Shown here: positions 20,358 to 57,780 of the stretch, piece by piece
Position numbering within the stretch: position 1 is the stretch's first letter
How the letters are laid out: the number at the start of each line of letters is the position of its first letter
DNA from: Telopea speciosissima
Taxonomy: Eukaryota > Streptophyta > Magnoliopsida > Proteales > Proteaceae
Direction: 5' to 3'
NCBI RefSeq assembly: GCF_018873765.1
Contig: NC_057924.1
Location: forward strand, 6,820,001 to 6,884,000
DNA: 64,000 bases
Position numbers and translations under genes: made by a program
The notes under the pieces: model-generated
What the model was told of the DNA's origin: nothing
What the model saw: only the letters and a program-made list of their open reading frames with translations
Databases searched by the model: none

Positions 20358-20829
20358 CTTCCCTTCCTCTTCTTCTTCTTCTTCAATACCACTAAGTGTC
20401 AGTCAACACTGAAAATAGAGATAAGGAGGGAGGAAGGGCTTAGGGTTCTTCTTCCTCTTCGTCGGTTCTTCCAGCTACGGGAATCTATCAAGCTTGCTAT
20501 GGACGTACACGGATGCTGGATGCACCATACTACTTCTCTGTAGATTGCATCGTGACCGTCCATCAGAAATACTCAGATTAGCTCCACCAAAAATCTGTAC
20601 TACCTGACACATCTTAAAATTTTCCATTTTTAATAAAAAAAAACAATTTTTTTATCCCGATCGTGCAGGTGTGAAAAAAATAAAGAAAATATTTTCTTTG
20701 GCTGTTAATCTCTGTTCGATTCAAAAACTTCAAAAAGAGCTTCAAAGCAAGATCCCCATTTCATTGATTCATTCTTCAATACGGAGAAGAAGAGAAAGAC
20801 GAAGAAGATTATAACTTGCAGGAATAATA
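20358..20829. promoter_or_regulatory. 472-bp head-to-head intergenic region, probable bidirectional promoter
   Basis: The two start codons point away from each other (minus gene at 20357, plus gene at 20830) with only 472 bp between them. The left part is a CT/GAA-rich tract (TTCTTCTTCTTCTTC at about 20369-20383), typical of plant 5' UTRs. The middle (20590-20700) is AT-rich. No specific factor site or TATA box is asserted. Confidence 0.55.
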
Positions 20830-21435
20830 ATGGGGTTGTGCAAGCTAGTGGATGCGATTCTTTTCCTCTTCTTCCTGGTTATAGCGGTGGTAGTTCCGCT
20901 TCTGGACTCCCAGACTTGTTTACCAATGCACCTGTTTCCAGATTTCCTCATCGACCTCAGTTCCTGGTACGCCCGTGAGTATGGAGATTACCTCATCGTT
21001 GAAAAGCCTGATTTCTTTGTTGCGCTTGTCTGGCTTGAGCTCATCCTCCAATGGCCCCTTTCCATTGCCAACCTTTACGCCATTCTCTCCAGGAAGTCCT
21101 GGTTCAGCAAGACTTGCTTGATCTACGGTGTCTCCAGTACCACTTCCATGGTATGTTTCTATATTCAAGGAGATCGCTGATTGATATTATATTTTCTGTA
21201 AAAGCACCCATTAAGACTCTGAATCTTCCTTTGTGTGATGGTCATTCATTCTCAGGTTGCGATTTTAGGGGAAATGATTGGTTCGCGCAAGGCATCGGAC
21301 AAGCTTATCATGATGTATTCTCCGTTCTTGGGTTTTGCTGTCCTTGCGGTTCTGCGTGGGCTGGTGCCAAGCGGGGGCAGGAGCAGGAAACCTACTTCAA
21401 CTAATGCCACAATGGCTAGGAAAAAGAGGGCTTGA
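20830..21435 (+). CDS. TMEM97/sigma-2 receptor-like EXPERA-domain membrane protein (two exons, 166 aa)
   Basis: Exons are 20830-21150 and 21256-21435, joined at ATG|gtatgt ... ctcag|GTTGCG, for 167 codons including TGA. The protein begins MGLCKLVDAILFLFFLVIA, a membrane segment at about residues 5-27. Acidic and aromatic residues after it (DLSSWY, EKPDFFVALVWLELILQWPL) and three more hydrophobic helices give the four-helix EXPERA fold of TMEM97. The C-terminus is basic (RSRKP...ARKKRA), which fits the ER-retention-like lysines of this family. TMEM97 in animals is an ER sterol-related protein and the sigma-2 receptor; the plant role is not established. The start is the first ATG of the frame, after a long purine-rich leader. 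Confidence 0.9.

Positions 21436-29288: not shown

Positions 29289-29368
<80 letters not shown>
29289..29368 (-). tRNA. trnL-UAG: tRNA-Leu (anticodon UAG)
   Basis: On the minus strand the RNA runs GACAGTTTGGCCGAGTGGTC ... CCCACAGCTGTCA, 80 nt. The acceptor stem GACAGTT pairs with AGCTGTC, with one G-U pair, and the discriminator base is A as expected for leucine. The D arm has TGGCCGAGTGG (A box). The anticodon stem CCAGA/TCTGG encloses the loop TTTAGGC, giving anticodon TAG. A class II variable arm (TCCGAAAGGGCG) is present, and the T arm holds GGGTTCAAATCCC (B box). There is no intron. A poly-T run (about 29253-29266), the Pol III terminator on the transcribed strand's complement, is not in the expected orientation, so the terminator is not asserted. 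Confidence 0.95.
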
Positions 29369-32288: not shown

Positions 32289-33889
32289 TTACTGTATCGA
32301 AACCAACAGGTTAGGAGAGGCTCTCTCAAAACCTAGAACCCTTTGAGCTTTTTGAAAGTACAAGTCAGGAGGTTCATCATCAATATCCATTTCCTTACAA
32401 GTACTTATACTTATCCTTTCCAAGACCTGAGCTTCTTTCATAAGATATTGTAGTAGTTCTTCTTCATATTTAAACCCTAGGAAGCCTTCTACCTTTATCA
32501 CTTTTAAATTTTCTCGCAAGCAGCAAAAACGCACTTGCATTTCGCGTTCTTTACAGAATCCTTTAAAATCAAACTCATCAGAAGAGCCTTCATCCTGAAA
32601 TGCAGATAGATATATGGTAATTAATTAAATTGTTAAACAATGTGGAAATGACCTAAAAATGAAATTACTGTAATTTCTTAAGGCACTTACTATGTGTCTT
32701 TTGAAGGATTTCATTTTGAGTTTTCCCCCAAATCCCATTTCAATTGAAAGAGTGTTTAACTTAGGGCAATACATGAGCAATGCCAAGATCCCAAGTAATT
32801 CTCTTGATTCCAATCCAACCTTTAAGATCAAATGCTTAGTTTCAAGGTATTTTGAAGGTGGAATAAAATCCAGTGTCCTCTTAGGAAGAACCTATTGAAC
32901 AGAAAGAGGTACAATACAAAGAGTTAAACAAAAAAAGGAGAAATATTAGAAGGTGGTTGAGGAAATTTATATACCTGAGTCACATAAGAGCAAACAGTTA
33001 AGCACTTCACTAGATGAAGACCTGGAAGAATGAGATAAAGGAAATATCTGAACTTATCAGATTGTATATATGCAAATTTAAATTCAAGTTCAGCCTTCTC
33101 AATGCTTGGTAAGTGTTGTAGTTCTAAGCTTCTGATTGATCCAAAATATTTGAAGAATCTAAGACTTGGTAAGGAGATCTTGATCCTGCTTTGAAGGGGA
33201 GAACAATCACATATACACAATTTTCGCAACCGGGTTTCTGTTCCTTCATACAGTTTTATATCTTCAAGATCAACACAATTCTTGAGATTTAGGGTTTCAA
33301 GTGATGGACAATTTGAAACCAAATCCTCAAAAACCCTTTGTGATAATCTGATATAACCTAGTGAGAGGTTCTTCAGTGAGCTCAAGTTTTTGAACATTGA
33401 AATATTGAGATTACAAACAGATAAGCTCAGTGATTGGAGTCCTCTATGTTTAAACAAACAAAAGGGTATATCAAAAAATGCTTCAGGATCTGATGGAAAC
33501 TTTCCTTCCCATCCTAACCCATAGAAGTTGAGATCAATTTCGTCTACTTTCCGATTTATGACAACCCTAATCCATTGTTCAATTTCGGAATTGAACTCAT
33601 TAGGGTAACCGAACGATAATCGGAACTTATCTACCTTCGGTTCTTGGTACTTCATCATCCATTTTCGGGCAAATTCGATGAAATCCCTCCTCTGAGACTC
33701 TTCTTCATCATCACCTTCAAGCAGATTACCCCTCATGAAGAATGTCTCATCGAATTCTATGCTTTTGGTGGACTGCCATATATATCTCCATCGTTTGGAG
33801 AGTATGCTTGTCTTTGCAGCTTCTTTGAATGGAAGAAAGGAAATGATATGGATAAGAACCAAGTCTGAAACAAAATCAAACAGATCCAT
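32289..33889 (-). CDS. F-box/FBD/LRR protein, copy A (three exons, 473 aa)
   Basis: Exons are 32975-33889, 32691-32891 and 32289-32594, with GT-AG borders; lengths of 305, 67 and 102 codons close in phase 0. The N-terminal F-box at about residues 4-45 includes LIHIISFLPFKEAAKTSILS and KRWRYIWQS. Leucine-rich repeats follow at about 120-300, such as LKNLSLGYIRLS and LETLNLKNCVDLE. Exon 2 carries YCPKLNTLSIEMGF, and exon 3 the FBD domain (CLRENLKVIKVEGFLGFKYE and KEAQVLERISISTCKEMD). Such proteins are substrate-recognition subunits of SCF E3 ubiquitin ligases: the F-box binds SKP1/ASK and the LRR-FBD part binds the target. The target is unknown. It is the first of three tandem copies on the same strand, with short introns (83 and 96 bp). 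The start is the ATG of MDLFDF, conserved in position with copies B and C, which have a few extra N-terminal residues. No breaks were seen. Confidence 0.92.
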
Positions 33890-34899
33890 ATTTCTCAGGG
33901 AATGGTTGTAATAATGGATCTAACCCAAGAAAATGAAAAAGAGTTTCAGGGAGAGGACTAGATTGAGGAAGAGAGGTCAGGAGAGAAAGATTAGGATGAC
34001 AAATGGATTGTTGATGGACCTTACAAGGAGTTGCAGGTGGGTATTTTATAAGAATCTACAAGAAAGGTTTTTGGAAATGTAATAAGCATGGAAATGCATG
34101 TCCAATTTTTCCTTTTGCAGGCCAACGGGCAAATACTAATTAGGGTTTTTTTCTACAGTACTTCTTATGTATACGTACATGCACTAATCTCTGTGTATTT
34201 TATCTCTGAAATGGAAAATCTCTATGCCTTTGGGTATTTATGAATCCAAAGGGAAAGTGAATTATTCTATTTCCTTGGCTGCCAGCCTTGTTGCAGGAAC
34301 ATTTCGGCTACTAGTGTAGCAGCAAAATTTCGTCCCTAGAGAAATCATTATCATTAATTAAGATTTATCATGCATGGGTTCTTGCCAGTTTTGTCTTGGC
34401 GCGCCTTTGAACGTAACGCTCACTCTAAGCGTTAGTCAAATACCAAACTTTGAAACCGTCTTGTCCTTAACTGAGAAATGGAAAAAAAGGAGTAAAAACA
34501 CAAGGGCTACACTGTATACTATACAATTTTGATAAGATTATACCAATAGTCTTGATTCTTGGGGATAACGATTAGCTGTGAGTTGAGTTTATGCTTATAT
34601 TCTTAATTAAGAAAATAACATTTTAAGTAAGGGCAAGAGGTCTCTAATTGGTCGCATGGTCTCTACACAAGCATTTGGGCCAATGGGTGAGCACGTCTGG
34701 GTATCTACCCAATGGGCAGAAGTGTCATCTCACGGTGCCCTGTGAGAGCGACTTGATACATGCTTCTAACCCATAAATTAGAAAATGTGTATAATGTGCG
34801 AATGGGGGTACAATTGAAGGTAAAAAAAAAAATGCTATGTTAAACGATTCAATTCTGTCAGTTATCCCTAACAAATTATGGCCAATGAACTAAAGAAAA

Positions 34900-39056: not shown

Positions 39057-41206
39057 TTAGAGGATTGAAACCAACAAGTTATGGGAGGCTCTCTCAAAAT
39101 CTTGAACCCTTTGAGCATTTTGGAAGTACAAGTCAGGATGTGCATCATTAGGATACATTTCCTTACAAGTATTTATAGTTATCCTTTCCAGGACCTGTGC
39201 TTCTTTCATCAGATACTGCACTAGATCTTCTTCATCTCTCAACCCTTGGTAGCCATATACCTCTATCACCTTTAGATTTTCCTTCAAGCAATGAAATTGT
39301 ACTTCACGTTCTCTACAATAATCTTTAAAATCGAATCCATGACAAGGTTCATAATCAACCTGAAACACAGATATTGTGGTAAATTATCAAACACTATGGA
39401 AATGACCTAAAATTAAAGGGCTCATGTTCTCTGTGCCGCAGCGCAGGCTGCACCCAGACACATGGGCCTGCCACTCAGGGGGCAGGGTGGTCATTGCGCC
39501 CACCCCCATTTGTCTGGGGGCAGGGCACAGAGAATATTCTCCCAAAATTAAATTAGTGTTAAGTTATTGAATTTTGATCTTTTCTTAAGATACTCACTAT
39601 GTATCTTCCAAAGGAATCCACTTTGGATAGTTTCCCAAATCCAATTTCAATTGAAAGAGTGTGTAACTTGGGGCAATACATGAACAATGCCAAGATCCCA
39701 GGTAATTCTATTTCATACAATCCAACCTTTATAATCAAATGTATAGCTTCAAGGTAAATAGGAGGTAGAATAAAAGCCATTTCCTTGTTGTGAAGAACCT
39801 ATTAAACATAAGGGAGTAAGATACATGAGTTAAATAGCAAAATAAAAAAAGAGGGGTAAATTACACGTCACCCCTTGATTTTCAAACGAAACTCAAATGA
39901 CCCCTTGGTTTTTGAAAATACTTAAATCACCCCTGTATTAGACCCCAATATGACAAATTAGTCCCAACCGTTAGTTTTATGCTGTTAAGTGATGATGTCA
40001 GTCAGTTAAATAAATTTAAATCCCTAAACTACCTTTGACATCCAACCATAGATTTTGAAGGATAGTATTGTAAATTTAATTCTAATGTTTTAGTACAAGG
40101 GTAAAATAGTTTTTTCACACCAATAACTAACAGCAGACTAACACTGTTATTGTAGAGGGGGACGAATGAGTATTTTCAAAAACTAGGGGATGATTTGAGT
40201 TTCGTTTGAAAACCAGGGGGAGACGTGTAATTTACCCAAAAAAAAAAGGGAGAAATAAAAAATGGGTTAGGAAATATACCTGAATTGAATAAGAGCATAC
40301 GGTTAAGCGTTTCGCGAGATGAACACCCCAAAGAATGAGATAAAGGAAGTATCTAAATGTATCAGAGTGTACATACGAAAACCCGAAATCAAGATCTGCC
40401 TCCTCAATGCTTGTCAAGTGTTGTAGTGTTAAGTTTTGGATTGACCCATTATATTTGAAGAATCTAAGACTTGGTGTGGAGATGTTGATCCTGTTATGAA
40501 TGGGAAAACAATTGGATACACACAATTTTCTCAGCTGTGTAGCTTTTGATCTTCCATTCAATTCCATATTATAGAGATCAACACAATTCTTGAGACTCAG
40601 GTTTTCAAGTGATGGACAGTTTGAAAACAAATTCTCAAAAAAAGTGTTTGATATTTTAACCCACTCCAGCGAGAGGTTCTTCAGTGAGCTAAAGTTTTTG
40701 AACATTGAACTATTGAGATTGCAAACGGCCAAGGATAGTGATTTGAGTCCTCCATATTCATGCAAACAGGAGGGGATTTCAATTGAATCTGCAGGATTTG
40801 ATGGAAACCTTCCTTCCCATCCAAACCCATTGAAGTTGAGATCAAGTTCCTCAACATTCCGATTTACGACAACCCTAATCCACTGTTCAATGCCAGAATA
40901 GAACTCATTAGGGCAAGAAAAGGATAATAGGAACTTATCTACTTTGGGTTCCTGGTACTGCATAAAAAATTTTCGGACATAGTCAATGAAAGCCCTTTTT
41001 TTAGATTTTCTTTCATCATCTTCAAGCAGATGATCCCTCATGAAGGATCTTTCGTCGAATTCTATGTTTTTGCAGGAATGCCATACATATTTCCATCGCT
41101 TCGAGAGTACGCATGTCCTTGCGGCTTCCTTGAAGGGAAGAAAGGAAAGGATCAGGATTAGAATGGAGTCTGAAAGAAAATAAAAAAGATCTATATTCCC
41201 TGTCAT
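39057..41206 (-). CDS. F-box/FBD/LRR protein, copy B (three exons, 476 aa)
   Basis: Exons are 40280-41206, 39598-39798 and 39057-39359, in phase (309, 67 and 101 codons). The F-box at about residues 7-48 includes ILILILSFLPFKEAARTCVL and SKRWKYVWHS. LRR-type segments follow (LKNLSLEWVKISN, LENLSLKNCVDLYN), then YCPKLHTLSIEIGF in exon 2 and the FBD domain in exon 3 (CLKENLKVIEVYGYQGLRDE, KEAQVLERITINTCKEMY). Its role is as for copy A: substrate adaptor of an SCF ubiquitin ligase, target unknown. It differs from A and C in its introns: intron 1 is 481 bp and intron 2 is 238 bp, each swollen by one DNA-transposon insertion (39854-40237 and 39418-39545). Both splice junctions look undamaged. The start ATG (MTGNIDLF) has counterparts in copy C. 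Confidence 0.92.
39418..39545. mobile_element. Fold-back element in intron 2 of F-box copy B
   Basis: The left end TGTTCTCTGTGCCGCAGCGC and right end CAGGGCACAGAGAATATTC form inverted ends (TTCTCTGTGCC/GGCACAGAGAA). The interior is GC-rich (ACATGGGCCTGCCACTCAGG). Copies A and C lack it at the same intron. It is the same family as 62470-62604 and, more distantly, 4144-4318. Confidence 0.75.
39854..40237. mobile_element. Mutator-like MITE in intron 1 of F-box copy B
   Basis: The ends are GGGTAAATTACACGTC and GACGTGTAATTTACCC, an exact 16-bp inverted pair. The inverted similarity extends inward (CAAACGAAACTCAAATGA against GATTTGAGTTTCGTTTG; TTTTTGAAAATACTTAAATC against GAGTATTTTCAAAAAC). The element sits between A-rich sequences of 9 bp or so, as expected for a Mutator-type target duplication, but A-runs make this hard to define. 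There is no transposase. Parts match the larger element at 60295-61890 (CACACCAATAACTAACAGCA). Confidence 0.8.
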
Positions 41207-41783
41207 GGCTAGCTAGCTATGATAGACCCAAGAGGATGAAAAGATTTGCAGGGAAAGGAGAGGAGAGGAAAGATGAGGAAGACAAGGGAATTGGTGATGG
41301 AATTTACAAGGAGTTGCTGGTGGGTATTTAAGTATCTAAGAGAAAAGGTTTTTGGAAATGTAAGGATGGATACACATATTAGGGTTTAATTTTCCACAGT
41401 ACATCTTTCTGGGTGTGTGCTTGCACTTGGCTGTTACACATTCCTTATTTGTATGCGTATTTATGTGAGTAACAGAAAAGAAATATATGCTTCCAGCTGG
41501 TGAGAGTAAAGATACCAAATTGAAACCATATTGTGCTTATCTGGGAGCAATAACACAAGGGCTACACTGTATACTGTACAATTTTGATAAGATTGTGTCA
41601 ATATATATTCTTGATTGTTGTGATAATGATTAGTTGAGTTGGGTTTATGCTCATATTCTGGATTAAGAAAATATATTTTAAGTAATTAACAAAGACTCTG
41701 AAGAGGAAAAAAAATTACCTTCTAATGATTAATTGTTACAAAATCTTTTAAGATTCTCTCGATACATGCTTCTTGCTAGGGAT

Positions 41784-42166: not shown

Positions 42167-43062
42167 TCTTGCCCATATATTAGAAAATGTGTATAATGTC
42201 TGAATGGGGGTGAAATTGAAGGTAAAAAAAGAAATACCTACCATGTTGAATGATTTTGTCAATTATCCCTAACAAATTTTGGTCAATGAACTAAAGAAAA
42301 AAATTTCTCAGTATTAAAATATTTAAGTTTACTGATGAGAAGTTTAGATGATTGTTTTTTTTCCGAAGGATCCTCTAGTGTTCCACTAAAATCTAGTTAG
42401 AATCATTAATCATAAACAAATTTGTTAAGTAACATGCATGCAAACTTCAATCTTATACTAGTGTACTTCCAATATCTGTGCACAATAAAGTAGGAGTCAT
42501 CCACTATGTCGTAGCTAGTAATGTATTTTCGACAAGATATGTCGGCAATCTTAACCTTAGCATTATGATGAGTAGTTTTTCTTTTCTATTTCCGGTGCAC
42601 ATTAAGATGAGTAGTTAAGATGTTTGATTTGTCCGAGGATCCTCTAATGCTCCACTAAATGCTATTCAAAATATCTTGCAACACGTGTGAGTATCATTCG
42701 GAGATCTCATGAAGTTCTCGATCGACAGAGCACCGTCAAAGAAAAGCCCATTAATGTTTGTAACTCCAAGTCCTTAAAAACGAAAAATGATGTCGCCAAA
42801 CCTTGATGATTTTGTTAGGAACATTAATCATAATTAAATTTGTTAAAAAAGTTTCATGTACTTCAATCTTATGTAGTATACTTCCAATATCTGTATGCAA
42901 TAAAGTATGAGTTATCCGCTATGTAGTAGGTAGTAAGGTATGTTCGACAAGATACGTTGGCAATCTTGACCTTAGTTAAGTATCTAAAAATATAACATGA
43001 TTACGACCTCAATGATAATGCACTAAAGAAAACACTTCTTCTAAGCATTAAGTCGAGTATGC

Positions 43063-43598
43063 TGGTCAACGCCATTTTGTTGCTTATGCTGGTCAGGTTT
43101 GGAATGTAGAAACCATTTATTCTTTGAATGTAGTTTTTCTAGTCAGATCTGGAGAGACATTTGTCGGCTTTGCTCTTCTAGAACCTTGACCTCGGATGTT
43201 ATAGTTGAAGCTAAGTGGGTTGTTAGGGAGTTTGGAGGTGACCAAATGGGAAGCATTGGTAAGGTGGCATTTTGTATGACTATACCTCACTTGTGGATGG
43301 AGAGAAATTTCAGGATGTTCCGGAACAAAGTACGGACTAGACTTTCCATTGTTCAAGATATCACTACTGATGTGAGAAATCGTTTTTACTCCATTACCCT
43401 AAGGGGGAAGAGATCTGCTCGAAAATTTTGCTTTATTGATAAATGGGGGCTGGATGCTATTCTTTTGGGGTAGCTGTGTCGGTTATGATTAGTGGCCACT
43501 AGGTCCTTTCCTATTGGATTCTGGGGCTGTTGTGTGCCTCTTGTTTGTATATTCTTTCTTTTTTGTTCTATATATTTGATTTACCGATAAAAAAATTG
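43063..43598 (+). mobile_element. 5'-truncated LINE (L1-type) with zf-RVT C-terminus
   Basis: A plus-strand frame from about 43099 reads CRNHLFFECSFSSQIWRDIC, the zinc-finger-like end (HLFFeC...iW) of plant L1-type LINE reverse transcriptases, and continues 124 codons to a stop at 43471. A 3' UTR and an A-rich end (GATAAAAAAA) follow. Short similar sequences (GTCGAGTA before, ATTGAGTA after) may be a diverged target-site duplication. It interrupts a spacer-repeat unit, which resumes at TTTTTTTTCCCGATGCACATT. The 5' part, with the endonuclease and RT core, is absent. Confidence 0.82.
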
Positions 43599-45317: not shown

Positions 45318-46917
45318 CTACTGTATTGAAACCAATAGGTTATGAGAGGCTCTCTCAAAACCTTGCATCCTTAGGGCATTTTGATAGTACAACTCAGGAT
45401 CTTCATCATCATCAAGATCCATTTCCTTACAAGTAGTTATAGTAATCCTTTCCAGGACCTTTGCTTCTTTCAACAGATACTGCATTAGTTCTTCTTCATC
45501 TTGAAACCCTTGGTAGCCATCTACTTCTATCACCTTTAGATTTTCTTTCAGGCACTGCAAACCCACTTGCCTTTCACGATCTCTACAAAATTCTTCAAAA
45601 TCAAACTCATAAGAAGGATCCTCATCCTGAAACATATACAGATATTATTGGTAAATTGTTATAAACAATGTGGAAATGACCTGAAAAAAAAAATGAAATT
45701 AAGGCACTCACTATGAGTCTTCCAGAGGCATTCACTTGGAATAGTTTCTCAAATCCCATTTCAATCGAAAGAGTGTTTAACATTGGGCAATACTTGAGTA
45801 ATGACAGTATTCCAGAAAATTCTCTTTCTTTCAATCCAACCTTTAGGATCAAATGCTTAACTTCAAGGTTTAGAGGAGGTAGAATAAAATCCAGTGCCCT
45901 GTTGTAAAGACCCTATTGAACATAAAGGAGTAAGATACAGAAGTTAAACAGCAAAAACCAGAAGAGAAGTAGAAGATGGTTAATGAAATATACCTGAGTC
46001 ACATAAGAACATAAGGTTAAGCACTTCGAAAGACGAATATCCGAAAGAATTTTATGAAGGAAGTATCTAAAAATATGAGGGTTTACATATGTAAACTCAA
46101 AATCAAGATCTGCCTCCTCAATGTTTGGCAAGTGTTGTAGTGTTAGGTTTTGGATTGACCCATTATATTTGAAGAATCTAAGAATTGATGTGGAGACGAC
46201 GATCCTGCTACGAAGAGGAGAACAATTGGATACACACAATTTTCTCAGTTTTGTAGCTGTTCTTCCCTTCAATTCCATATTATAGAGACCAAGACAATTC
46301 TTGAGATTCAAGCTTTCAAGTGAAGAACATTTTGAAAATAAATTCACAAAAAATGTTGTTGATAGTCTGGCACACTCCAGTGAGAGGTTCTTTAGTGAGC
46401 TAAAGTTTTTGAACATTGAATCATTTAGATCACATGCAGCTAAGCTTAATGAATGGAGAGATTTATTTTCATATAGACATGATGGCATAACAAATGAAGC
46501 TGCTTGATTTGGTGGAAGACTTCCTTCCCAACCCAACCAGTAGAAGCTGAGATCAAGTTCCTTAACATTCCGATTTATGACAACCCTAATCATCTGTTCA
46601 ATTTCGGAATAGAACTCATAAGGGCTAGAGAACGATAGTCGGAACCTCTCTACCTTGGGTTCCTTGTACTGCATCATCCATTTTCCGACGTAGTCGATGA
46701 AAGCCCTTTTCTGAGACTCTCTTTCATTACCTTGAAGGAGATGACCCTTCATGAAGGAACTCTCATTGAACTCTATATTTTTGCAGGAATGCCATACATT
46801 TCTCCATCGTTTGGAGAGTATGGATGTCTTCGCTGCTTCTTTAAAGGAAATAAAGGAAAGGATCAGGATAAGAATAGAGTCTGTAAGAAAATCAAACAAA
46901 TCCATTTTTCCAGGCAT
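45318..46917 (-). CDS. F-box/FBD/LRR protein, copy C (three exons, 477 aa)
   Basis: Exons are 45994-46917, 45712-45912 and 45318-45626, in phase (308, 67 and 103 codons). The F-box at about residues 5-48 includes LILILSFISFKEAAKTSILS and KRWRNVWHS. LRR segments such as LKNLSLECARLS and LESLNLKNCLGLYN follow, then YCPMLNTLSIEMGF in exon 2 and the FBD domain in exon 3 (CLKENLKVIEVDGYQGFQDE, KEAKVLERITITTCKEMD). The tail ERASHNLLVSIQ is the same as in A and B apart from single changes. Introns are short (81 and 85 bp), as in A. Its role is inferred as an SCF substrate adaptor. Two start codons are possible, MPGKMDLF and, four codons later, MDLF; the longer is given because copy B has a counterpart. 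Confidence 0.92.
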
Positions 46918-49570
46918 AGCTGTAATGGATCTAACCCAAGAAAATGAAAAGAGTTGCAGGGAGATCGAGGACTAGTTTGAGGAGAGGCCAGGAGAGAAAG
47001 ATTAGGATGAAAATGGATTGTTGATGGAACTTACAAGGAGTTGCAGGTGGGTATTTATAAGAATCTAAGAGAAAGGTTTTTGGACAACAGGCAAATACTA
47101 ATTAGGGTTTTTCCACAGTACTTCTCGGGCAAGGCGCTCAGGCAGGAGTAAGGCCGTCATTGCACTGTGCCTTGTTTGTGCGCCGCTCAGGCCACTACAG
47201 GTAGACGCGTCGTAGAAGATCTGGATTAGTGTATTTTATGTCTGAAATGGAAAATCTCTATTTCTTCAAGTGTAGAGAAATCTTTTTCATTAATTGTAAC
47301 GTTTATTATGAGGTTCTTGCCAGCTTTGTCTTGGCGCCTTTGAACGTAACGCACGCTCTAAGTTTTAGTCAAATACCAAACTGTGAACTCCCCACGAGAT
47401 TTACCCTTTAGGAAGGTTATGTTTCTCTCAAATATTGACAATTGTATAAACAATTAGGAAAGAAATAAATACTTCACGCCAAGAATACAGACTACAAATA
47501 CCATATTGAAACCGCCTTGTGCTTTACTGAAAAATGAAAAAAAAGGAGTAAAATCACAAGGGCTACATTGTATACTCTACAATTTTGATAAGATTATGCC
47601 AATATTCTTGATTCTTGGGGATAACGATTGGCTGTGAGCAGGGGTGAGGCAGTCTTTTCATGCCTCACCAAGTCCGGCATTGCACATGCAGCCCGGGCGG
47701 GATGTTGGACAGAATCCTTTTGGGTATGCTCATATTCAAGATTCTCTCCATTCCATCAGCAAGCTACTTGATACATTCTTCTTGCCCATATATTAGAAAA
47801 TAATGTGTATAATGTATGAATGAGGTAAAATCGATGATTAAAAAAAAAAATACTATATTAAACGATTTAATTTTGTCAATAATCCCAAACAAATTCTGGC
47901 CAATGAACTAAAGTAAAAAATCCGGCATTAAAATATTTAATTTTATTGATGAGTAGTTTAGATTTTTGTTCTTGTGAAGGATCCTCTAATGTTCCACTAA
48001 AATTTAATCAGAACGATTAATCATAAATGAATTTGTTAAGTAACATGCATGCATACTTCAATCTTATACTAGTGTACTTCCAATAGCTGTGCGCAATAAA
48101 GCAAGAGTTATCCATTCTCGAACGACAAAGCACCGTCAGAGAAAAGCCCGTTAATGCATGTAACCCCAAGTCCCTAAAAATGATAAATGATGTCGCTAAA
48201 TTTTGATGATTTTGTTAGGAACATTAATCATGAATGAATTTGTTAAGTTTCATGTACGTCAATCTTATACAAGTTTCTTGTACTTCAATCTTAAACGAGT
48301 GTACTTCCAATATTTGTGCAGTATAAATTAGGAGTAATTCGTTATGTAGAAGCTAGTAATGTATGTTCGACAAGATACATTGATAATCATGACTTTCGTT
48401 ATGTATCTAAAGATCTAAGATGATTATTGCCTCACTAATAATGCATTTAAGAAAGCGTTTCTTCTAAGCATTAAAATTTTAGTTTAATGATGAGTAGTTT
48501 AGGCGCTCGATTAGTCCGAGGATCCCCTGATGTTCCACTAAAAGCGACACAAAATATCTTGCAACACGTGTGAATCATAAACCTCATGAAGTTTTCGATC
48601 GACAAAGCATCGCCAAAGAAAAACCCATTAATGCATATAACTCCAAGTCCCTAAAAATGATAAATGATGCCGCCGAATTTTAATGATTTTGTTAGGAGCA
48701 TTAATCATGAATGAATTTGTTATGTTTCATATACATCATTCTTATACAACTTTCATTACTTCAATCTTATACAAGTGTACTTCCGATATTTGTCTGCCAT
48801 AAAGTAGGAGTTATTCGCTATGTAGTAGCTAGTAATGTATGTTCGACAAGATACGTTGATATTCATGACCTTTAGTTATGTATATAAATACCTAATGATT
48901 ATGGCCTCACTAGTAGTGCACTAAAGAAAACGCTTCTTCTAAGCGTTAAAAAATTCAATTTATTGATGAGTAGTTTAGACGTTCGATTTGTCTTGTCTAA
49001 GGATCCTCTAATGCTCCACTAAAAGCAACTCAGAATATCTTGCAACACGTGTGAGTACCATTCAGACATTACAATAAAAGCCCTCAACGGTGGTGGTAAT
49101 TATCGTCGTTGTATGTCCAAAAACCACTATCACAGACATATAACGATTTTGCTTTGTTAATTATGGGATTAGAAAGAAAATTTGGAATTTCTCAATAACA
49201 TGTTCATTCTTTGTAATTTCCTCTTTTTCTTTACCTTTCGGGTGCATGTTCATTATAAAGCTTTTCAACATAGATGCATAAGTAGATATTTTTCATATAG
49301 AATCTAGATTACGATTGATATAAAGAACCAAGTTTTCCTTTACCATGGGTGAAAGAAGAATCCACATAAGTAAATATTTTTCATATCTGATTCTTAGAAA
49401 TGAGGACAAGATCCGATATGATGCAGGTATAGACAGGTTTGTGGTGGTGAAGTCTAATGTTAGAGATGGTGGGTGGAACCTAGGGCGCGTCAGGTAACTT
49501 ATTGAACCTCCAGTGTGTTTGGGACTATCTGGGCTGCATTATTATTTCGAGTGATTTTGTAGCTGACTCC
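46918..49570. other. Region upstream of F-box copy C: repeats, then start of a fourth unit without a gene
   Basis: The 5' flank of copy C is followed by GC-rich half fold-backs (about 47125-47225 and 47640-47720) and the repeated upstream block (about 47320-47640). Spacer-repeat copies follow at 47780-49075 (period about 478), then a CACTA-like fragment (49075-49150). From 49155 the sequence matches 31335-31760, the downstream edge of unit A. No F-box gene follows, so a fourth unit seems cut off. Confidence 0.6.
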
Positions 49571-49951: not shown

Positions 49952-51420
49952 ACTCCTTTATTTGGAAAGGTGTTTCTTCTCCACAAGATCGACTTGGGAC
50001 ATTATCAGAAACCTTCACCCTAGATGCATTTTTTTAGTGGAAGTCTTGTTTATGTCTTCAGTTGCAATTGGTTTCAGTTTCTTGTCTTTTGTAACATTTT
50101 ATTCTCGAGAATATACATACATCATTTTGAAATGGACATTTTTTTATTGTCTATTGTGTACACATTTGATTATTTGCCTACTTCAGATATTTGAGGCTAT
50201 GTGGTATATTTGCCTCCTTTGGTATTTGAGGCCTTCAGTAAATACACACATTTTTTTTCACTAGTAGAGCCTCATTCAGTTTCGGAGACTTGTACTAGTG
50301 TGTTGGGACATTCAGACCCAGTCCCAATGAGTTTCCTTGTGTGAAGCGTTAGCGTTTATGTGATGCATATGGTTAATGAGACCTTCAGTATTTGTCTCAT
50401 GAGGCTCATTCGGTTTCGAGTCTGGATCAATATGGACATTGGCATGTTGATCACTATTTCATGCAATTTTCATACCACATTTTCATATTGTTCAGCCCAA
50501 GTTAATGAGGTTATGAATACTTTGACGTGTTTGGTCCTATGTCGCCTTAGATGTGATGACCTGCACGGTTGGGTGTTTGTAATTTTCATTCAGACCAAGG
50601 CATTTGGTTTAAGGTGTACTCTACATCAACACTTTTGTTTGTGGCCACATTTAGTTTGTCTAAACCGGAGAGTCATTTTAAATCTAAAACTTGTGACATA
50701 TGCTGCCCAAGTGGGAGTTGTAAGATTTCCATTAGGTGGGCAAGCATAATCCAATATTTGGTTTCTAAAACCAGCTTAGAGGTGTTAACTACGGTTGGAG
50801 TGAGCTTGATTCAATACTAGTAAGTGATCATTTGTATAGTATTGGGTCAGATTAAGTACACCTTAATGGTATGAAAATCAGGTTTTATGTGTGGACCTAA
50901 GGCATTAATCCTTTAATGGGAAAAGATGCACCAATTTGTGTTACAGGGTTGGTCTCTACCCTCACTCATATAAAGGGCTCATATTGTCCTATTAAGTCTT
51001 GAGCATAAGGAAAGATGAGAAGAGGGTAGACAAGGCAAACAAAAGGAGTTGTGAAGGGAACCAAAGGTTGTGGAACTTATCCACTTCAAACATGGATACA
51101 GGTATATCACCAAACCTCCTTGTTCTTGTTGATTGCATGCTCATTGATCTCCATGATTCGATTCCGCATTTAGTATACATTTATCGGAATATTTATGTTT
51201 GGACACCAATAGTTGGGCTCCCCTCTAAAATCATCATAGCATTTTGAAGCTCACTTATCTTGATAGTTTTTGTTTTTTCATCTATACATGGTAAGATCCT
51301 CCCTCTTTGTTTTCCATTATAGGTTAATCGAATCTCTTCTGGTTTCTGATCATTAGTTGGTTAAGTTTTCTTGAATAGTAGCTAATTTGCTAGTTGATTT
51401 CATTTTTGGTTTCATTAAAA
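49952..51420. other. Unassigned region, no supported gene
   Basis: T-rich DNA with several open frames of 60-130 codons that are hydrophobic or low in complexity and match nothing I recognise. A TATA-like stretch (TCATATAAAGGGCTCATATT, about 50966) followed by a purine-rich leader-like sequence could belong to an old LTR-type or other repeat. I cannot support either. Confidence 0.35.
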
Positions 51421-52790: not shown

Positions 52791-53986
52791 ATCTGCTTAG
52801 CTAAGAGAGCATCATTTTTAAAGGTTAAAATTTTGAATTACTTCTTTTCCCCGTTTTTAACAGCATATCAATCTGCTTTTATCCTTGAAAAAAAGGGGAA
52901 AAGGAATGATCTTTGAATGGTTTGTTAATTACTTCCTAATACTTTCCAAAGATAGGTTGTGGAGGAATTTATCTATCTATCAGGCTTGGAATAAGAGTTA
53001 AGATCAAGATGAATGACAAATAGGTGAGAGAAGGAGTTGGATATATAAGATGTTAAAGGAGTTCATCATCAAAGTCATTATTTCAATTATTCCAATTCTG
53101 GTAAGGTAAGCTGGTGATGATAGCTTTGATGCATTAGAAAAATATCTTGAGGATGAATGTTGTACCTAATTTTATTCTTTGAAAATCGAAGAAGGGGCTA
53201 CTGAGCAAGGACAACTGGTGAAATTGGTTATTTTGTATGGTGGGTCCCAATTTGGAGCAGTAGATTTACTTTTTTAGAATTTTGACCTTTCAGGGAAGGA
53301 GGGAGGCCAAGGAAGGAAGGAACGAAGAGCCGAACAACTCCTCTAGCTAGACATTTACTAAGCATGAGGTTCAGGTGCATATCAAAATGATGATTTATTT
53401 TCATCACAAGATAAGCATTCCTAGAACTGATCCTTGTTCACTTCATTTAATATGAGATGGTTAATAAATACCGCAATATTATCTTTTACATATCATGGAA
53501 GTCTATGGATGTAGGATTACGCAGGATTACATTGAGACATGGGAGGAAACCAATAAGAAGGTAAATAATTGAGTACTAATTATTAATTATTTATCATAGG
53601 TTTTGCCAAAAGCTCAATTCTAATAATTGTATTATATTTTTCAATATGGTTCATTTCACGGGTGTTTCATAAAGCAAAAAAAGGAATGGCAGTAAATCTC
53701 TACTAACATATAGTTATTTGTTTTTTACCATTAAATTTTTAGCCTAAAATCAACTTAGAGTAAACAATAAGAAGAAAACCCCAGATCTAATAGTCATTGG
53801 GTGGGTAAAGTGAGATGGTGGCTCTGTGTCGTGTTCTCTCTTTTCTCTTCTTTCTGAAATGATTCATGATTTGGAAAAATCTTATTGTATATCATATAAG
53901 GTTATGTAATTCGATCAATGGACGACATTTGTTGATGCTAATTCAGCGAATAGGATTCAACCAGACCACATATATGCTTAGCTGAT
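52791..53986. other. AT-rich region, nothing recognised
   Basis: No coding similarity, inverted repeat or tandem repeat of note was seen between duplicated block 1 and the triplicated element end at 53987. Confidence 0.5.
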
Positions 53987-54914
53987 CTTGACAAGAAAAC
54001 TTTTTGTCATATAATATAGGGTTAAATACGCATACCCCCTAAAATACACTCAATATTCCTCGTACCTCCTAAGGTTCTGACAATTCCACGTATCACCCCT
54101 GAAAATTCCACGTACCACCCCTATTTTACCCCCTAAAACCATTTAAATCCAAAGTGCTAAAAATGACCAAACTACCCTCTCTTTTATCTTTTCTAAAATT
54201 TGAAAAGACCTAATTACCGTGACCTATTTGTTAAAATTTAAAAAGACAAAAATACCCTCATCTTCCCCAAATCATCATCTTCTTTTACAATGTAGATCTT
54301 GACAAGAAAACTTTTTGTCATATAATATAGGGTTAAATACGCATACCCCTAAAATACACTCAATATTCCTCGTACCTCTAAGGTTCTCGACAATTCCACG
54401 TATCACCCCGAAAATTCCACGTACCACCCCTATTTTACCCCTAAAACCATTTAAATCCAAAGTGCTAAAAATGACCAAACTACCCTCTCTTTTATCTTTT
54501 CTAAAATTTGAAAAGACCTAATTACCGTGACCTATTTGTTAAAATTTAAAAAGACAAAAATACCCTCATCTTCCCCAAATCATCATCTTCTTTTACAATG
54601 TAGATCTTGACAAGAAAACTTTTGTCATATAATATAGGGTTAAATACGCATACCCCCTAAAATACACTCAATATTCCTCGTACCTCTAAGGTTCTGACAA
54701 TTCCACGTATCACCCCTGAAAATTCCACGTACCACCCCTATTTTACCCCCTAAAACCATTTAAATCCAAAGTGCTAAAAATGATCAAACTACCCTTTCTT
54801 CTATCTTTTCCAAAATTTGAAAAGACCTAATTACCGTGATCTATTTGTTAAAATTTAAAAAGACAAAAATACCCTCATCTTCCCCAAATCATCATCTTCT
54901 TTTACAATGTAGAT
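53987..54914. repeat. Three tandem copies of a 308-311 bp unit (left end of the NPH3-carrying element plus its flank)
   Basis: Copies are 53987-54297, 54298-54605 and 54606-54914. Each starts CTTGACAAGAAAACTTT and TGTCATATAATATAGGGTTA and ends with CATCTTCTTTTACAATGTAGAT. The unit joins host flank (CTTGAC...ATAATAT) to the terminal repeat (AGGGTTAAATACGC...), so the triplication happened after insertion, apparently at a short AGAT/GATC homology. Copies differ mostly by single-base indels in homopolymers (CCCCC against CCCC) and a few substitutions. Confidence 0.92.
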
Positions 54915-55395
54915 ACCCAATACTACCACAACCATCACCACCACCACCACCACCACCATTAACACTATCACCACCGGATTTATCCCTTGCGTTCTTCCAC
55001 CCACTTCTCCATCCTCACCGTCGGCCCGTGGAACCGTTAAAATCACTCTAGGTAATTCTACATGAAATTCAATGCTAAGATATTATTCCACGAATATAGT
55101 ATAGGCTGCAAGTGAGTCTGAGACTCTGAAAGCCTTGCTACGCTAATGGGTACAGGTTACTGATACGTATTATTTGGTTCGAGGTTGATTTTTATTTGAT
55201 ACATTCAGTTACTTGATTCCTTTTGACGGATAATACTTTCAGTTTTTCTCATCAATTGCATCAGATATTTATTTTTTACAGAGAACAATCTTGGTACATT
55301 TGGGTTCTTGTGGATGATTCCTGATCTAGAGCAAGTGTAAAAAATGGAATAAATTTATAAATGGATTTCATTGGAATTACATTTATAAACAAGGG
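54915..55395 (+). other. Candidate second captured segment with a possible intron, origin unknown
   Basis: After a proline-coding CCACCA run, the frame continues LSPPDLSLAFFHPLLHPHRR and then PVEPLKSL to a donor-like CTCTAG|GTAATT near 55051. A T-rich acceptor-like TTTTTTACAG ends at about 55281, followed by AGAACAATCTTGGTACATTTGG, which stays open for about 18 codons. The exon-intron-exon look suggests genomic capture of a gene piece. I do not recognise the protein. Confidence 0.35.
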
Positions 55396-55399
55396 TTTT

Positions 55400-56149
55400 T
55401 TACAAATGCCCCCCTGAACTAAAGCTTGAGCTCTTCTCCAGTGGCAGATTCACAACTATAGTCTCCAGCAGCAATCTCTGCTCTGTCTCCAAAGCTATAG
55501 ATGTTGTGGTTGATTTCCTATTGAAAAGAGAAAGGCCTGGAATGGATTTCTTGGCATACGATATTAGAGAGCTCTTGATGATTCCCAGGCTTAGATCTTG
55601 ATTTTTCATGGCAGAAATCAGTCGCTTGTAGATCGGCAAGCTAAGAACACCTAGATCTTCAAACCAGGGGTTGGCACTGGTGTTTTTAGTTTGGTTCTTC
55701 CCGCGCTTTCCAGTATCGATCCCATTCCAAAGGATCTGATTGGAAGCCTTGGCTGTGGTTATCCCTTCGTTCATCGGCCAATCAAACAATGAGGGATCTG
55801 TAGAGGAAGCTCTCGAAGCGATTGAGTCGATGCACCTTTGCGGAATGTTGAGGGTATCTGCGAGAGGCATGAGTGCTTCACAGGATTTCAAGGTCTTAAT
55901 GGATTCTTTGATGTTTCTGAGAACTGATTGGGTTAAGAAACTTTCAGTTTTGAGAAATAGAACAGCCTGGTGGGGCTTCACGATGGTGATGGTGTTAATG
56001 GTGGGTGGTGGTGGTGGTGGTATTGGTATTGGGTATCTACATTGTAAAAGAAGATGATGATTTGGGGAAGATGAGGGCATTTTTGTCTTTTTAAATTTTA
56101 GAAAAGAAAGAAGAAAGGGTAGTTTGGTTATTTTTAGCATTTTGGACAT
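55400..56149 (-). pseudogene. NPH3-domain gene fragment fused to terminal-repeat sequence in an open 249-codon frame
   Basis: The minus frame starts with ATG at 56147-56149 inside the terminal repeat (MSKMLKITKLPFLLSF..., about 40 residues). It runs through a proline-rich joint and from about residue 60 matches the NPH3 domain of NPH3/RPT2-type (NRL) phototropic signalling adaptors. Matching segments are FLKTESFLTQSVLRNIKESI, IPQRCIDSIASRASSTDPSL, FDWPMNEG, WFEDLGVLSLPIYKRLISAM and EQRLLLETIVVNLPLEKSS. Full NRL proteins have about 600 residues, with an N-terminal BTB domain and a long C-terminal part, both absent here. It is therefore a captured piece of a host gene, yet the frame is unbroken. 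It may be recent, or simply unexpressed. Confidence 0.82.
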
Positions 56150-57383
56150 ATATGGCTTCAGGGGTAAGTAGGGTTGGTATGTGAAATTTTCAGGGGTGGT
56201 ACGTGGAATTGTCAGAACCTTAGGGAGGTACGAGGAATATTGGGTGGATTTTAGGGGTACGCGTATTTAACCCTATAATATATGGGAAAATCTTGTCCTA
56301 ACCAATATTGGTAACAAAAAGATTGTAATATTTTTTTTACCCTCATAGTATAAGACACTTCTTTTTTCTATAAGGGTAAATCATGTCATTTCACATGGAT
56401 AATGACAACTACTTTAAAATGACATAATGATATATCACTTTCAACTTATTTTGCAAATAGGGTAAAGCTGATTGTAACCAACCCGGTTATAACAGATTTT
56501 GTAACCACATTTTTATACCCTTGCCCAAAGGAGAGTACAATATTTTGAGATGGGGATTGTTTTGTAATTGGACTTAAAAGATTGGGACCACTTATAAAAA
56601 GTTAGACTCCATATCAAAATAGAAACAAGGTTAGTTATGTAACTTTAAATTTGCAATTGCTAAAGCCAATCCGAGTCTTTTCTCTTCCCCCTCTTTCTCA
56701 ACCTTCTTCTCCGAAGTCAGCACCTCTGCAACTACAATGTTTCAGATGTGTTATCTTGAGATCCTTCAATCTCACGAAACTCACAATCCTCAAAGTAATG
56801 GCTGCGCAATGGATCGGAAGAGGGTGAGGAAGCCCAACCCTGTTGGTCGGTGTGAAAGTTGCCCCAACCTCCTCCTGCCAGCATCTTGCACCATGGCAGA
56901 CCGGCATTGCATCAAGCCAACAACCCAACAAGTTCATGGCTCCCTCTCCGTACATCATTGACACCGACACCACTGCCCCCGCCCCCTTCATCTCTCTCCT
57001 CGCAGCCCCAACTCTGTCGCCACTGGTCCTCTCCTGCTCCTTCCCGTTTGGTCTCAACTTCTTGAAAGCAAGAAGAATGCCATGAAAAAGTTCTACATTT
57101 ATCTAAACAAAATAGACACAAATCATGTCATAGAAAGGATTCACTTGCAGCAAAATCGATCGATCAACCATTCATCTCTATTTTCCCTATTTGAAACCCT
57201 CTAACTCTGATTTTCTACCTGATTTGTGTGAAAATCATTCTTCAGAGTCCCTTGATTTCTCCAAAATTCTTTGACAAACATCTCTTATGAGTTCATTGGA
57301 TACTGTGGAAAGATTAATGGGCTCAATTGAATTTTCAGTAAGAACTAGTTGTCTTACCTTTTCCTTACTATTGGTGGTTTTAG

Positions 57384-57716: not shown

Positions 57717-57780
<64 letters not shown>
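57717..57780. repeat. (GA)n microsatellite, about 64 bp, followed by a G run
   Basis: A pure GAGAGA tract ends in GGGGGGGAG. The RERERE and SLSLSL frames through it are not genes. Confidence 0.97.

Follow-up and report, generated by a model that had tools for sequence, protein, structure and literature searches.

The stretch at 54019-56273 of the 64-kb DNA analysed here (the window hereafter) is very probably a Pack-MULE, that is, a non-autonomous Mutator-like element, which carries a piece of an NPH3-family gene and, as a passenger, an open frame that starts in one terminal inverted repeat (TIR) and continues into that piece. Gene capture with a frame that reads open is an ordinary event for a common kind of plant transposon, and the element is in this respect an ordinary Pack-MULE; its left end, which occurs in triplicate, is unusual. 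The post-insertion duplication proposed below for that left end is less sure than the Pack-MULE core.

Element ends and Pack-MULE assignment

Long TIRs around captured gene sequence, and a target-site duplication of some 9 bp, are the features expected of Mutator-like Pack elements. The first-pass annotation had proposed a Pack-type DNA element with a host-gene piece, and this proposal is supported by the TIRs, the 9-bp direct repeat, the NPH3 match and the lack of a transposase-sized frame. Among the stop-to-stop frames within the element, the chimeric frame alone reaches 120 codons, and it has no transposase match in Pfam (frames of at least 120 codons were scanned). The element had been placed at 54018..56274; its existence is upheld, and its ends are better set one base inward on each side (Table 1). 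The TIR termini read GGGTTAAATACGC and its complement, and the 9-bp sequence TATAATATA, a likely target-site duplication, adjoins both on the outside. Between the innermost left TIR (54637-54976, 340 bp) and the right TIR (293 bp), 267 of 290 aligned bases are identical, with 53 gap columns, and the largest gap block consists of 38 bases missing from the right TIR.

Table 1. Features of the element and its borders (positions in the window)
Feature	Position	Strand	Evidence and remarks
Left tandem unit U1	53984..54294	+	25 bp flank, 9-bp repeat and left TIR from 54019; direct repeats, TRF
Left 9-bp direct repeat, likely target-site duplication	54010..54018		Exact match to 56274-56282; adjoins TIR end
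Left tandem unit U2	54295..54602	+	Against U1: 307 identical, 0 mismatches, 5 single-base gap positions (pairwise)
Left tandem unit U3	54603..54976	+	Flank, 9-bp repeat and full left TIR (54637-54976) with inner CACCACC-rich part; differs from U1 at 5 of 300 aligned bases
Interior	54977..55395	+	Donor-like site within the 12-mer at 55046; acceptor-like site up to 55281; short TAA-terminated frame; AATAAA at 55348
Stretch presumed to resemble a DNA-transposon end	55396..55419		Codes for most of the frame's final residues
Chimeric open frame, 249 aa	55400..56149	minus	TIR-derived start, NPH3 piece and short tail
Captured NPH3-family piece	55425..55980	minus	Inner boundary approximate; PF03000 match; GC 0.448
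Right TIR, about 293 bp	55981..56273	minus	Inverted repeats (best 25 of 32 pairs), local BLAST, alignment
Right 9-bp direct repeat	56274..56282		Directly outside right TIR end

The 9-bp sequence is close to palindromic, and four of its 8 occurrences in the window lie at the element ends; the bases beyond it match in inverted order at 8 of 12 positions in an alignment. Because of the near-palindrome and the inverted-order match, the TIR may extend further outward and the direct repeat may be partly fortuitous. In a local-alignment control, the score of the two 40-bp flanks was equalled or exceeded by 244 of 5000 random pairs, and the best match was an offset 8-mer rather than a TIR extension. 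One alternative direct repeat was found, 8 bp long with 1 mismatch, which is within chance by a rough estimate.

No second copy of the element or of its TIR was found in the window (BLAST of 53984-56300 at E 0.01, in which the element and its own TIR units alone matched), so that the TIR family is known here from one element. MULEs with long TIRs and gene fragments have been described (PMC3310237), and the present element shares with Pack-MULEs the long TIRs, the 9-bp direct repeat, the inner host gene piece, the chimeric frame and the missing transposase-sized frame. It shows no difference in kind from them, apart from the left end in triplicate.

Genomic context

The window has a GC content of 36.8%, and its gene content is that of plant DNA, with F-box/LRR frames that match Pfam models named for Arabidopsis proteins, and with NPH3 itself. 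Three of its stop-to-stop frames are longer than the chimeric one (352, 331 and 326 codons), and all three have F-box matches; F-box/LRR frames of one kind lie on the minus strand at 32924-33919, 40232-41212 and 45913-46971 (Pfam F-box, LRR_At1g61320_AtMIF1 and LRR_At5g56370). An EXPERA/EBP match (PF05241, E 7e-12) was found at 20815-21180 on the plus strand, and a tRNA gene (Rfam RF00005, 61.3 bits) at 29289-29368 on the minus strand. A plus-strand frame at 43045-43473 gave a weak, below-cut-off zf-RVT match (E 0.00089), perhaps marking a retrotransposon remnant. Six further frames of the window were compared with Pfam, of which five had no match at E 0.01; the sixth, at 56698-57102 on the minus strand just outside the element, had a weak MFS_MOT1 match (E 0.0019) below the cut-off. 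The frame at 50345-50749, one of seven window proteins scanned together, was likewise without a Pfam match. A perfect (AG)32 microsatellite lies at 57717-57780.

The captured NPH3 piece

Residues 162-241 of the chimeric frame match PF03000 (NPH3) at profile positions 3-83 of 258, with 55.6 bits against a cut-off of 27 and an E value of 8.4e-15, and the captured part as sole query gave 56.3 bits (E 4.8e-15). The match covers about 80 residues, about a third of the profile, and the complete domain is not present in the frame. The section from the TIR joint to residue 161 has no Pfam match above cut-off; from about residue 60 onwards it presumably resembles the stretch that lies N-terminal of the Pfam domain in NPH3/RPT2-like proteins. 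Of the roughly 190 NPH3 residues claimed in the first-pass annotation, about 80 are thus borne out by Pfam, whereas the remaining 100 or so fall outside the match and are presumed to be NPH3-like. NPH3/RPT2-like genes typically have a BTB domain upstream; a Pfam scan of the 249-aa frame, with E values up to 0.1 admitted, gave no BTB match.

Two other Pfam candidates for the frame, NELF-A_N (E 0.0024, 18.3 bits, cut-off 27) and Gag_p10 (E 0.089, 13.2 bits, cut-off 23.9), scored below their cut-offs and were set aside. A PDB sequence search at E up to 1 returned no NPH3 relative, its sole match being a histone H2B (E 0.22) that we regard as chance. A pattern search for relatives of the frame gave no match in viral contigs and 30 in genome contigs, none of them confirmed, and these viral and prokaryotic collections are uninformative on the parent gene. 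The captured piece has a GC content of 0.448, and the five other stretches of the element lie at 0.326-0.406, except 54977-55060 with 0.488.

The chimeric open frame

The frame has an ATG start and a stop-to-stop length of 288 codons. Its start codon lies within the right TIR, which joins the captured piece at about 55980/55981, and both the ORF list and the repeat mapping bear out the earlier description of an uninterrupted 249-codon minus-strand frame beginning in the inverted terminal repeat. At its C-terminus the frame runs off the captured piece and ends within 55396-55419, a stretch that we take to resemble the end of another DNA transposon; with up to 3 mismatches allowed, the window contains no other match to this stretch.

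In a control with 2000 first-order random sequences, each of 2317 bases and modelled on 53984-56300, no frame reached 288 codons; the longest had 216, and the longest frame per sequence averaged 96. This control exaggerates the rarity of the frame somewhat, because the captured piece is less AT-rich than the modelled stretch. The captured part contributes a stop-free stretch of 183 codons. Only 67 of the 1647 possible single substitutions in these codons (about 4%) would make a stop, so that openness is expected without selection at low divergence and argues weakly for function; moreover, a fragment of a single exon would inherit an open frame in any case. The absence of stops from the 183 codons also fits selection on the frame.

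The remainder of the interior

The part of the interior outside the NPH3 piece, about 450 bp, begins with a GC-richer stretch (0.488 at 54977-55060), followed by AT-rich stretches of 0.332 and 0.326. From the splice-like sites, the short frame and the AATAAA motif listed in Table 1, we conjecture that 54977-55395 may represent the 3' terminus of another host gene, one with an intron, which would lie on the plus strand and face the NPH3 piece. A second gene piece that retains an intron would mean capture at the DNA level. The conceptual peptide of this putative piece had no match at E up to 10, either in Pfam (43 aa) or in PDB (45 aa).

An element of this composition is comparable to the Pack-TYPE elements described by Gisby and Catoni (2022, PMC8903248), being likewise a DNA transposon with captured coding DNA, possibly from two places. 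According to the model outlined there, neighbouring insertions fuse. Pack-TYPE elements also contribute exons, and transcripts joining element and host exons are given in that account for three of four cases, and not for one (PMC8903248).

The left end in triplicate

TRF reports a tandem array at 53984-54914 with a period of 308, 3.0 copies and 97% match. TATAATATA directly precedes each of the three left TIR copies, and the 25 bp flank is common to all three units, being one base shorter in U3. The trinucleotide GAT is common to both tandem-unit breakpoints, as slippage or a microhomology-mediated duplication would leave. Besides its 5 substitutions relative to U1, U3 has two single-base gaps in a comparison that took U3 up to 9 bases before the end of the full unit. 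When the five differences between U3 and U1 are compared with the right TIR, one appears changed in U3 and two in U1/U2, while two fall at a gap of the right TIR; the unit differences would fit one older and one younger duplication. In a four-row alignment, columns 87-96 of U2 look like substitutions, whereas in the pairwise alignment they reduce to the loss of one base and the gain of another.

The left end was probably duplicated in tandem after insertion, to judge from the units themselves: because each unit carries the 9-bp repeat, the extra ones would have been made after insertion, provided that this repeat is the target-site duplication. On this reading of the 9-bp repeat, and unless merged haplotypes account for the units, the insertion would predate the divergence of U3 from U1/U2, and the capture in turn would predate the insertion. 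That the capture was recent, as the first-pass annotation suggested, is no more than a possibility.

It is possible, although rather doubtful, that the array has another origin, either as part of a longer TIR in a multiple-TIR MULE that moved as such, or as an assembly error. MULEs with multiple tandem TIRs have been reported (PMC3310237), and the inverted-order match beyond the 9-bp repeat would suit a longer TIR. Type 3 of that report is defined by an extra TIR, similar over 100 bp or more, on one side only, and the present element likewise has tandem extra copies at one end, in three left units of about 308 bp with 97% match. In the present element there are two extra copies, each behind the 9-bp repeat and 25 bp of flank. 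Among 61 tomato MULEs with extra TIRs, as presented by Ferguson and Jiang (PMC3310237), the internal TIR has no recognisable target-site duplication; the present array differs from these elements because TATAATATA precedes the internal TIRs, and the same repeat and flank on every unit argue against an array that moved as such. In the classification as set out in that source, the gene-carrying multiple-TIR MULEs are of types 1 and 5, not 3.

An assembly error, or merged haplotypes, is possible; the differences of U2 from U1 are single-base gaps alone, which look like consensus errors. The five substitutions between U3 and U1 exceed what plain copying error in an assembly would leave, though two merged haplotypes could give them. 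Taken with the repeat and flank on every unit, we favour tandem duplication of the left end after insertion.

Origin of the element

The most coherent account of these features is that a non-autonomous Mutator-like element copied part of one exon of an NPH3-family gene, at the DNA level, between its long TIRs, and perhaps a further stretch of host DNA was captured by the same element. A transposase supplied in trans would then have inserted the element at this site, leaving the 9-bp target-site duplication, and afterwards two tandem duplications would have copied the left end along with the adjoining outer 34 bp, which comprise 25 bp of flank plus the 9-bp repeat. The 249-codon frame would be open since the reading frame was preserved in the exon piece and, by chance, meets no stop in the TIR either. 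We suggest that the frame is a passenger without selected function, perhaps weakly transcribed from the TIR and silenced. Transcription of the element is possible, since promoters are reported to lie within Mutator TIRs (Ferguson and Jiang 2012, PMC3310237).

Expression and possible function

Two facing TIRs flank the NPH3 piece, and transcription from the left end would therefore be antisense to NPH3. The element might act through RNA, with sense and antisense transcripts from both TIRs yielding small RNAs on the parent gene, as could be imagined from rice genic MULEs, for which 24-nt small RNAs are recorded at interiors and TIRs (PMC4858842). We consider this improbable on the arrangement of the element, in which the NPH3 piece is single-copy between the TIRs: a read-through hairpin would yield double strands of the TIR and not of NPH3. 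The RNA of the 249-codon frame also shows no special folding (z -0.44), with 6 of 20 shuffles folding equally well or better.

A working gene, in which transcription from the right TIR would give a shortened NPH3-like protein able to disturb or modulate NPH3/RPT2-like adaptors, is highly improbable as judged from the frame. The ATG-initiated 249 codons exceed random expectation, the captured codons are free of stops, and the promoters said to reside in Mutator TIRs could serve such a gene. Nevertheless, the frame holds only the beginning of the NPH3 profile and has no BTB match, its N-terminus is TIR-derived, its C-terminus runs past the captured piece, and its openness could be inherited from the exon. 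A bacterial promoter scan found 2 sites against 2.8 expected and no terminator-like site, but its model is bacterial and not meaningful for plant DNA. A combined scheme, in which the right TIR would provide promoter and translation start for a selected 249-residue TIR-NPH3 fusion competing with NPH3-family adaptors while the tripled left TIR drives antisense that sets its level, is scarcely credible.

Significance

A literature search over part of the printed record returned no paper that joins Pack-MULEs with NPH3, nor one that joins NPH3 with a transposon and a gene fragment. New exon combinations in plants are known to arise through Pack-type elements, to which the present case adds one with an NPH3 piece. 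Beyond that, the left end may be a case of TIR multiplication that can be dated after insertion, since the copies carry the target-site duplication, and the chimeric frame, if expressed, would be a testable new protein of the NPH3 family.
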